In this document: positions 31,805-34,147 of the stretch, one piece after another
Numbering within the stretch: position 1 is the stretch's first letter
Layout of the letters: each line of letters opens with the position of its first letter
Assembly: GCA_027315105.1 (NCBI GenBank)
Contig: DAHUYP010000019.1
Coordinates: 1-34,746, forward strand
DNA length: 34,746 nucleotides
Reading direction: 5' to 3'
Origin: Gammaproteobacteria bacterium
Lineage (GTDB): Bacteria > Pseudomonadota > Gammaproteobacteria > Steroidobacterales > Steroidobacteraceae
Notes under the pieces: model-generated
Databases searched by the model: none
What the model saw: the letters and a program-made list of their open reading frames with translations, nothing else
What the model was told of the DNA's origin: nothing
Made by a program: the position numbers and the translations under genes

Positions 31805-33271
31805 TTACTCGATGCGCTCGCCGTGCTGCGAGAGGTCGAGACCCTCGCGCTCATCGTCGGTGGTGACGCGCAGGCCGATGGTCACGTCGACCAGCTTGAG
31901 GATGATCACGCTCATGATGAATCCGTAGAGCAGCGTCGTGCCGACACCCCAGAACTGCGTCAGCACCGAACCCTCGACGCCGCCGATGTCCTTGCTCGCC
32001 AGCGCGCCGGTCAGCAGCGCGCCGACGATGCCGCCGATGCAGTGCACGCCGAAGGCGTCGAGCGAGTCGTCGTAGCCGAAGGCCCGCTTGACCGAGGTCG
32101 CGCTGATGAAGCAGATGATTCCGGCGGCGATGCCGATGATCACCGCCGAGCTCGGGGCGACGAAGCCCGAGGCCGGCGTGATCGCGACCAGCCCGGCCAC
32201 CGCACCGGAGGCGATACCGAGCACGCTGGGCTTACCTTTGGCGATCCACTCCGTGAACATCCAGGCGAGCGCGGCGGCTGCGGTGGCGATCTGGGTGGCC
32301 GCAAACGCCATGCCGGCGCGCCCGTCGGCGGCCACGGCCGAACCGGCGTTGAAGCCGAACCAACCCACCCACAACAGCGAGGCGCCGATCAGGGTCAAGG
32401 TCAGATTGTGGGGTGCCATGGCCTCCTTGCCGAAGCCCTCACGCTTGCCCAGCATCAGCGCGGTGGCAAGGCCGGCGATGCCGGCATTGATGTGCACCAC
32501 GGTGCCACCGGCGAAGTCGAGCACGCCGAGCGCGTTGAGCCAGCCCGAGGGCTCCCACACCCAGTGCGCGATCGGGCAGTAGACCGCCAGCAGCCAGAGC
32601 GCCATGAACCACAACATGGCCGAGAATTTCATGCGCTCCGCGAACGAGCCGCAGATCAGCGCCGGGGTGATGATCGCGAACGTCAGCTGGAACATCGCGT
32701 ACACGCTCTCGGGGACCGTCGTGCCGAGGTGCGATACGCTGAGCTTCATGGCATCGTGCATGTAGACGACACCGTTCATGAAGGCGCGGTTCAGGCCGCC
32801 GAGAAACGCGGTGCTGCCCGGCGTGAACGCCAGCGAATAGCCGACCATCCACCACAGCATCGTCACCAGGCAGGCAATCGTGAAACTCTGCATGAGCGTC
32901 GCCAGCACGTTCTTCTTGCGCACCATGCCGCCGTAGAACAGCGCCAGGCCCGGTATGGTCATCATCAGCACCAGTGCGGAGGAGGTGAGCATCCAGGCCG
33001 TGTCGCCGGCGCTGATGTGGTCGAACGGCACGACGATCGGGGCGGTCGGGGCGGGCGGGCCGGCCGCCGTGGGGGCGGCGGTGGTCGATCCGGGGGCCGG
33101 CTCGCCGACCGCGGCGCTCGAGGCAGCGTCATCGGCGGCCGCGGCTTCGTGCGCGTACGAGGCGGCCGGCGGCGCGCACAAGGCCAGGGCCAGCGCCAGC
33201 GCCGCGAGCGGCGCGGCGCCGACTCGAAGCGCCCGGCGCCCGTATTGCTTGATCTTCAAATCCCGGTGCAT
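31805..33271 (-). CDS. amtB: Ammonium transporter AmtB
   Basis: The protein has 488 residues. A signal peptide (1 to about 40) is followed by an Ala/Pro/Thr-rich stretch (about 42-80) and then the 11-helix Amt domain. The twin histidines of the pore are His260 (GGTVVHINAG) and His410 (DAFGVHCIGG). Other landmarks are GLALFYGGMVRKKNVLATLMQS (split at its helix end), CGSFAERMKFSAM, WFGFNAGSA and the cytoplasmic loop KRAFGYDDSLD that meets GlnK in E. coli. It imports ammonium across the inner membrane when nitrogen is scarce. The gene follows glnK by 45 bases. The long low-complexity N-terminal part is greater than in E. coli AmtB. Confidence 0.96.
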   Translation of the reverse strand: MHRDLKIKQYGRRALRVGAAPLAALALALALCAPPAASYAHEAAAADDAASSAAVGEPAPGSTTAAPTAAGPPAPTAPIVVPFDHISAGDTAWMLTSSALVLMMTIPGLALFYGGMVRKKNVLATLMQSFTIACLVTMLWWMVGYSLAFTPGSTAFLGGLNRAFMNGVVYMHDAMKLSVSHLGTTVPESVYAMFQLTFAIITPALICGSFAERMKFSAMLWFMALWLLAVYCPIAHWVWEPSGWLNALGVLDFAGGTVVHINAGIAGLATALMLGKREGFGKEAMAPHNLTLTLIGASLLWVGWFGFNAGSAVAADGRAGMAFAATQIATAAAALAWMFTEWIAKGKPSVLGIASGAVAGLVAITPASGFVAPSSAVIIGIAAGIICFISATSVKRAFGYDDSLDAFGVHCIGGIVGALLTGALASKDIGGVEGSVLTQFWGVGTTLLYGFIMSVIILKLVDVTIGLRVTTDDEREGLDLSQHGERIE

Positions 33272-33316: not shown

Positions 33317-33604
33317 TTACGTGGCCGCGGTACCGGTTTCTCCGGTGCGAATGCGAATCGCCTGCTCGAGTTCTCCGACCAGGATTCGGCCATCCCCCGC
33401 CCGGCCGGTGCGGGAGATATTGGCAATGGCTTCGAGCACCGGCTCGACGATGGCATCATCGACCGCGATTTCGACTTTGGCTCGCGGCCCGTATTGTGCC
33501 TCGTACACCTCCGTCACCGTCACGCCCTGAACGCCGAGCTGCGCAATGGCCTGGCGCAGCTCGTCCAGCTTGAAGGGCCGCACGACCGCCGTGATCATCT
33601 TCAT
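33317..33604 (-). CDS. glnK: PII protein GlnK with the T-loop deleted
   Basis: The protein has 95 residues instead of the usual 112. The N-terminus MKMITAVVRPFKLDELRQAI, QGVTVTEV, the B-loop TGRAGDGRI and the C-loop AIRIRTGETG are typical of GlnB/GlnK. Between TEV (31-33) and KVEIAV (43-48), where E. coli GlnK has 24 residues (34-57), there are only nine (YEAQYGPRA). The missing 15 or so residues are most of the T-loop, including the uridylylated Tyr51 and the tip that enters the AmtB pore; the Gln39 equivalent that contacts 2-oxoglutarate-Mg-ATP is also gone. The frame is otherwise intact, and the operon and its nitrogen promoter look normal. An in-frame ATG at 33685 would add 27 residues and lies just after the predicted transcription start. 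Neither start has a clear ribosome site. Confidence 0.9.
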   Translation of the reverse strand: MKMITAVVRPFKLDELRQAIAQLGVQGVTVTEVYEAQYGPRAKVEIAVDDAIVEPVLEAIANISRTGRAGDGRILVGELEQAIRIRTGETGTAAT

Positions 33605-33705: not shown

Positions 33706-33721
33706 TGCAGAAACCGTGCCA
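33706..33721 (-). promoter_or_regulatory. Sigma-54 promoter of glnK-amtB
   Basis: On the minus strand 33721-33706 reads TGGCACGGTTTCTGCA. It matches the RpoN consensus TGGCAC-N5-TTGCA at all but one defined position, with the GG and GC doublets separated by exactly ten bases. Transcription should start near 33695, about 90 bases before the glnK ATG at 33604. Confidence 0.8.
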
Positions 33722-33871: not shown

Positions 33872-34147
33872 ATGGAAAACCGGCATATCGACGAGCTCGC
33901 GAAGCGCCTTTTCGAAGGGCTGCCCGAGGCGGCGCGCGCCATGCGACGCGATATCGAGAGCAACTTCCGCGCCGTGCTGCAGTCCGGCCTCGGCAAGCTC
34001 GACCTGACCACGCGCACCGAGTTCGAAGTGCAGGCCAAGGTGCTCGAACGAGCACGGGCGCGCATCGACGAACTGGAGCAGCGCCTCGCGACGCTGGAGC
34101 GGCGCCTGAAAGAGTTCGAGGAGACGATCCCTCCGGTCTCGGACTAG
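33872..34147 (+). CDS. ubiK: UbiK (YqiC/BMFP) ubiquinone-biosynthesis accessory factor
   Basis: This 91-residue protein has an amphipathic N-terminal half (IDELAKRLFEGLP, AARAMRRDIESNFRAVLQSGL) and a C-terminal trimeric coiled coil (about 45-85: FEVQAKVLERARARIDELEQ, divided into heptads). It is the UbiK/BMFP family. UbiK pairs with UbiJ, encoded at 12903-13550, to support the aerobic Ubi complex. GGGGAA precedes the ATG at 33872. A TATAGG at 33812-33817 may be its -10 box, which would place its promoter inside the region shared with glnK's NtrC sites. Confidence 0.9.
   Translation: MENRHIDELAKRLFEGLPEAARAMRRDIESNFRAVLQSGLGKLDLTTRTEFEVQAKVLERARARIDELEQRLATLERRLKEFEETIPPVSD

Follow-up and report, generated by a model that had tools for sequence, protein, structure and literature searches.

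In Escherichia coli, contact between the PII protein GlnK and the ammonium channel AmtB is made almost exclusively by the T-loops of GlnK, with Arg47 blocking the pore, and a Tyr51Ala variant of GlnK is not uridylylated, according to sections of PMC4274968. In an archaeal GlnK, part of PMC8395244 describes Gln39 as completing the magnesium shell and Lys58 and Arg9 as binding the 2-oxoglutarate carboxylate, with nucleotide contacts that include Thr29, Gly87, Asp88, Lys90, Arg101, and Arg103. A passage in PMC7196632 states that the majority of known PII interactions use the T-loop, and also reports that Azospirillum brasilense GlnZ lacking Q42-S54 still binds NadE2 and relieves its inhibition despite 2-oxoglutarate; the same variant still binds UmpH, without 2-oxoglutarate control and with docking on the lateral face proposed, according to a passage in PMC11617674. 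Such engineered T-loop deletions are found in open-licence PMC full text, where we found no natural T-loop-free PII and no described family of such proteins beside amtB, of which the original prediction had likewise known none.

The window analyzed here, a stretch of 34,746 nucleotides forming one entire contig (DAHUYP010000019.1) of a gammaproteobacterial genome in the family Steroidobacteraceae (2.79 Mb, 91 contigs, 86.7% complete), carries a glnK gene without a T-loop next to amtB (Table 1). From ATG to stop, the gene encodes the 95-amino-acid product MKMITAVVRPFKLDELRQAIAQLGVQGVTVTEVYEAQYGPRAKVEIAVDDAIVEPVLEAIANISRTGRAGDGRILVGELEQAIRIRTGETGTAAT, which is matched by Pfam P-II (PF00543) over the whole domain (profile 1-102) at 65.2 bits (cut-off 25). 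A gap of about 15 residues at the T-loop, filled by YEAQYGPRA, had been predicted here; location, replacement, and coordinates stood, and the size is revised to a net loss of 17 residues, 26 (residues 34-59 of a 112-amino-acid PII) having given way to nine. Residues named by type and number follow the 112-amino-acid PII. The canonical T-loop residues Gln39, Arg47, and Tyr51 are absent, and downstream of the gap a Pro-Arg-x-Lys stands at the position of Pro57-Lys58-x-Lys60. The 2-oxoglutarate ligands are affected throughout the group, with Gln39 deleted and Arg at the Lys58 position in all 15 short GlnKs compared. Since Arg47, Tyr51, and Gln39 are missing, the short GlnK is most likely unable to plug AmtB, to be uridylylated, or to bind Mg-ATP and 2-oxoglutarate in the normal way, and the known gating mechanism, considered unavailable in the original prediction too, would be closed to it, since the plugging residue Arg47 went with the T-loop. 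A residual carboxylate site is possible, because positions 9 and 58 are both Arg in the window protein.

Table 1. Features at the glnK-amtB locus of the window (positions on the forward strand).
Feature	Position	Strand	Basis
T-loop-free glnK (95 aa and stop codon)	33317..33604	-	ORF, Pfam, alignment, family profile search
YEAQYGPRA, residues 34-42, standing for residues 34-59 of a 112-aa PII	33479..33505	-	Alignments; predicted tight beta-hairpin
B-loop TGRAGDGR (66-73), with T and GDG conserved and Arg at the Lys90 position	33386..33409	-	Alignment
C-loop RIRTGETG, residues 84-91; Arg101 and Arg103 equivalents	33332..33355	-	Alignment
Putative sigma-54-type element TGGCACGGTTTCTGCA, beginning 117 nt upstream of the glnK start	33706..33721	-	Pattern match
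amtB, 488 aa, immediately 3' of glnK	31805..33271	-	ORF, PF00909, PDB sequence match
ubiK (YqiC)-like gene in divergent orientation; landmark of the glnK-amtB locus common to relatives	33872..34147	+	ORF; tentative name
comM-like gene, 5' part, truncated by contig end	34169..34744	+	ORF; tentative name

Set against canonical GlnK (PF00543; E. coli and the relatives G017, G032, and G033), the short protein shares the core fold and the B- and C-loop residues, and differs in having nine residues for 34-59. Engineered GlnZ-delta42-54 (5ovo, in complex with DraG) is alike in combining a PII core with a removed T-loop, but it is laboratory-made, loses 13 residues, and keeps those up to 41, Gln39 included, whereas the natural deletion takes the loop base as well. 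The best of five monomer models (pLDDT 83.1, pTM 0.70; the others 76.9 to 61.6) has two strands, residues 28-35 and 39-48, that a tight turn connects at the former T-loop site into a beta-hairpin, and a tail at residues 88-95 scoring below 50. The best 50 Foldseek rows for this model were all PII proteins or PII-containing complexes, with 5ovo at rank 23; the same entry was the second-best PDB sequence match, at 94.5 bits. The short GlnK is predicted to fold as a PII, and we propose that it is probably trimeric.

A profile built from 12 short sequences and run against 217 genomes of the family, the source genome included and with matches listed best first, matched over its entire length (1-95, 285 bases) in 17 genomes among the matches listed, namely 11 of the 15 genomes of the window's genus (g1) and six of the nine listed of genus g21. 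Read individually, all 17 encode 95 amino acids in an intact reading frame. Twelve of them align with zero gaps at identities down to 66%, and their replacement loop follows the pattern x-E-x-x-x-G-[PA]-R-x. An order-wide profile search (396 genomes, hits at E 1e-34 or better) returned 14 short forms, exclusively from g1 and g21, scoring at least 158 bits, followed by a full-length protein at 126 bits; a short PII very dissimilar to the 17 could escape both profile searches. A DNA pattern scan of 84,980 species genomes, which fixed the loop at nine residues together with flanking residues, such that other loop lengths could escape, found 15 loci, all in metagenome-assembled Gammaproteobacteria or Proteobacteria and 12 of them already in our locus set; it did not recover the short form of G253, where Lys60 is Arg. 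Within g1, the absence of short glnK is direct for G003 only. The other genomes of that genus without a listed match are G005, where amtB is a contig-edge piece, G013, where amtB lies at a contig edge, and G012, where the amtB profile search gave no match.

The short gene occupies a shared locus. A ubiK-like gene lies divergently upstream in 16 of 16 short glnK loci, and the G253 locus also has a ubiK match; the gene names ubiK (YqiC), comM, and, at the locus of a full-length PII, gshA are tentative. A putative sigma-54-type element, recognized by its likeness to the sigma-54 promoter consensus, has its first base 109-121 bases upstream of the start codon at 17 of 17 loci, in the form TGGCA[CT]-N5-CTGCA in 16 of them and degenerate in G011 (TGGTACGCTTCCTGCT). 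The window contains a single exact copy with TGGCACG, at the tabulated site, and with one mismatch allowed there are two matches against 0.47 expected, a count reached in 8 of 100 shuffles; the weight therefore rests on the constant place of the element in 17 genomes. Beside a ubiK match stand also the 112-amino-acid GlnKs of G017, G025, G029, G030, G032, G033, and G044, and the element is present at five of these seven loci (G032 and G033 among them) and was not found at those of G017 and G030; the canonical GlnKs of relatives share the downstream amtB as well. Because the ubiK locus and the sigma-54-like promoter are common to the short form and to these relatives, the short GlnK is, by its genomic context, an orthologue of the GlnK at the family glnK-amtB locus. 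Judged from sequence, it is a GlnK variant with the locus, linkage, and core of that protein and without its T-loop and 2-oxoglutarate ligands. Linkage to amtB is seen 3' of short glnK at 14 of 17 loci, with amtB running off its contig in G008 and G248. The contigs of G010 and G014 stop 168 and 239 bases downstream of the gene, respectively, and in G011 more than 5 kb downstream is without amtB. The short glnK of G011 lies at the ubiK locus (L043, 4401-5450) with no amtB before the next genes, and the amtB of this genome is found on a separate contig with a promoter element of its own.

Across 120 pairs from 16 sequences, short glnK has a median pN/pS of 0.22, and dN/dS ranges from 0.03 to 0.25 among the 12 pairs with the smallest pS. 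All 15 short GlnKs compared have unchanged equivalents of Thr29, Thr83, Gly87, Asp88, Gly89, Arg101, and Arg103. The Lys90 position, a nucleotide contact, is variable (R in eight, K in three, H in two, S and L in one each), and some members may therefore bind nucleotide less well. Columns of the replacement loop change faster than the others (median pN 0.29 vs 0.11). A pseudogene was rejected on the unbroken frame in all 17 genomes and on dN/dS values well below 1. The comparisons thus show a protein under purifying selection with its PII core and most nucleotide-site residues retained, and one that may bind ATP and ADP.

The explanation we consider best, at roughly even chances of being right, is that this protein is a GlnK orthologue that lost its T-loop, retained its nucleotide-binding body, and acts independently of the T-loop. 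We propose that the T-loop was removed from the GlnK of the glnK-amtB locus, the simplest course being a single event in an ancestor that the two related genera share; that the remaining body would still bind ATP or ADP at the subunit clefts; and that under nitrogen limitation it would act on a target that recognizes the PII body. Its signal would thus be decoupled from 2-oxoglutarate and glutamine, and a full-length PII paralogue would then gate AmtB in its place, or the channel would be ungated. GlnZ-delta42-54 offers an engineered precedent, by analogy, for action without a T-loop. A candidate target, again by analogy, is an NAD synthetase of the glutamine-dependent type: the source genome has a 642-amino-acid ORF with an NAD-synthase domain, on another contig than short glnK, and strong matches to that domain occur in 18 of 20 genomes searched. 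We assigned the type by length, 642 amino acids being what is expected for the glutamine-dependent enzyme. DraG was rejected as a target, PF03747 being present in 15 of 20 genomes and not specific. Membership of the metal-efflux-linked PII-like groups, weighed because the original prediction had mentioned metal-transport-linked forms, was likewise rejected, the neighbors here being ubiK, comM, and amtB.

These bacteria also possess ordinary PII signalling. Full-length PIIs are present in all 15 genomes of g1: the source genome and G011 have one each, G005 has one and a further piece at a contig edge, and the remaining 12 genomes have two apiece. Every one of the 27 full-length sequences keeps F36, Q39, R47, Y51, and K58. 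A GlnD_UR_UTase match was obtained in 19 of 19 genomes searched, strong (E <1e-48) in 17 and fragmentary in G005 and G014; in the source genome, ORFs of 908 and 962 amino acids are presumably GlnD- and GlnE-like, going by hit pattern. Both a second, full-length PII and a GlnD-type protein, for which the original prediction had suggested looking, are thus present in the source genome. The full-length protein there (contig C25, L001) belongs to the same PII family and has 112 residues with a canonical T-loop, at a different locus downstream of a gshA-like gene. Such a partner raises the possibility that the short GlnK is a mixing subunit, which would form heterotrimers with full-length PII and, with fewer T-loops per trimer, would tune both AmtB plugging and PII signalling as nitrogen starvation raises glnK expression. 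Heterotrimers of GlnB and GlnK are mentioned, with a citation, for E. coli in a passage of PMC5448240, and the role would call for a core that can form trimers but has no T-loop. The short GlnK and the full-length PII of the source genome, however, are just 48% identical, and we regard this arrangement as unlikely, if worth keeping in view.

The history of the locus bears on whether the gene matters at all. In a tree built without the T-loop columns, the short GlnKs fall on one side of a single branch, with support of 97/74, or 93/76 with more relatives included, both unstarred and drawn from 86 columns, which is few. Their neighbors are the 112-amino-acid GlnKs found in genus g12 and in G176, and the joint clade has starred support of 99/92. 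This sister group sits at the same locus and shares the core features, but its T-loop is present and eroded: mean identity over residues 36-56 is 0.67 vs 0.83 for the core (17 distinct sequences), compared with 0.85 vs 0.83 in canonical GlnKs (10 sequences) and 0.996 vs 0.81 in the full-length PIIs of g1 (27 sequences). Eleven of the 19 eroded GlnKs have lost Gln39, 16 carry Arg in place of Lys58, and all 19 carry Tyr in place of Phe36, with Arg47 and Tyr51 retained in every one, a count outside which G229 stands. In G229 (genus g12; L158, about 1495-1830), the eroded T-loop is also without Tyr51 (GYGTEDGHDEHYRGQHLQVEF). The series extends to loss of the gene, since no glnK match was obtained between the ubiK-side promoter element and amtB in G003, G018, G019, G021, G027, G031, or G035. 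These glnK-less loci, each with amtB and an upstream sigma-54-type element (L098 in G003; L110, L111, L113, L114, L115, and L119), comprise one in the window's genus and six in other family genomes. Canonical, eroded, deleted, and absent states of GlnK therefore coexist at one locus, and G003, having no glnK at this locus, can dispense with the gene. The pattern fits loss of the 2-oxoglutarate ligands before the T-loop, in an order that we only infer because the eroded and short groups are sisters.

Such a graded series might mean that the short GlnK is a remnant, in which the functions of the T-loop were given up first and the gene is slowly vanishing without an important role. Full-length PIIs of the genus have a median pN/pS of 0.14 (66 pairs, 12 sequences, paralogues mixed), so that constraint on the short form, at 0.22, is somewhat weaker; the branches of G007 (1.44) and G011 (0.62) are long, and the promoter element of G011 has degenerated. 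Against this stand purifying selection across two genera, the uniform length of 95 residues, the invariant B- and C-loop residues, and the exact promoter form in all genomes but G011, and we hold slow disappearance of a gene without a role to be distinctly unlikely.

That the short GlnK might still control AmtB, by another surface, is quite improbable. The amtB of the window (PF00909) scores 354.1 bits against 2nuu_A ('Ammonia channel', E. coli AmtB), and together with the alignments it bears out the original prediction of a T-loop-free GlnK beside an intact AmtB. Retention of amtB downstream at most loci would speak for continued control, as would the conservation of the AmtB cytoplasmic loops: loops and C-terminal region together score 0.86 vs 0.81 for the rest in one type (six AmtBs) and 0.83 vs 0.78 in the other (five), and the C-terminal region by itself scores 0.80 and 0.87, respectively, so the cytoplasmic docking face appears without sign of decay. 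Yet the E. coli contact, in the portion of PMC4274968 that describes it, is almost only by T-loops, and two unlike AmtBs accompany the short GlnK, one in the window itself and, at 78.5-80.6% identity to that copy, at five further loci, and one at eight loci (52-55% identical). Both types also adjoin 112-amino-acid GlnKs (for example in G016 and G033). A search for AmtB changes matched to a GlnK without the loop found no change of the cytoplasmic loops going with the short form in these 6 + 5 AmtBs, and the group compiled for eroded GlnKs, which included L096 with its canonical PII, was left out of the comparison; the insert that separates the two types does not track the T-loop state either, being present beside canonical GlnKs. 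In G011, moreover, short glnK has no adjoining amtB. The original prediction had suggested that the protein senses ATP/ADP only, touches AmtB by a different surface, or has lost its partner, and sequence comparisons single out none of the three. They gave nothing pointing to a new AmtB-binding surface on the short GlnK, and the evidence leans toward loss of the T-loop functions, AmtB gating included, because the T-loop of the sister group erodes, G003 has no glnK before its amtB, and the short glnK of G011 is without amtB.

Two further observations concern amtB itself. Within one genus, two unlike amtB types lie behind the same glnK (the window vs L037 and L044; 78.5-80.6% or 52-53% identity), which suggests that amtB was replaced in place. 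The source genome has a second amtB (G000:C86:34432-35622, L097), 51% identical to that of the window, with no PII match in the 4 kb examined around it; no further AmtB was found in G002, G004, or G009.

Loss of a 51-base stretch during assembly or sequencing has virtually negligible probability: although each of the 15 named records is a metagenome assembly, the 95-residue form is shared by 17 family genomes, and is therefore not a chance or sequencing deletion, always in frame with one length and a conserved replacement loop at divergences down to 66% identity, the carriers include records from several differently named isolate series, and where the original prediction had looked to relatives for extra bases, 16 other genomes carry the same deletion.

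Taken as a whole, we propose, tentatively and at somewhat short of even chances, that this is a natural PII without T-loop and 2-oxoglutarate sensing, kept as a nitrogen-starvation-induced, adenylate-only signal carried by the PII body (or as a subunit mixing with full-length PII), with a stepwise series of states at one locus. Its interest lies in a natural loss of the T-loop of which intermediate states are preserved. Laboratory deletions had hinted at a second, body-borne mode of PII action outside 2-oxoglutarate control, which, without natural cases, could be argued to be an artefact. A lineage in which the T-loop was deleted, the remainder stayed under selection, and the gene mostly remained in the ammonium-channel operon would amount to evolution's own deletion experiment, and the series suggests an order in which the channel-gating partnership may be dismantled: the 2-oxoglutarate ligand, then the T-loop, then the gene. 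This small group of uncultured bacteria may thus provide a natural test of what a GlnK is capable of without its pore-plugging loop.
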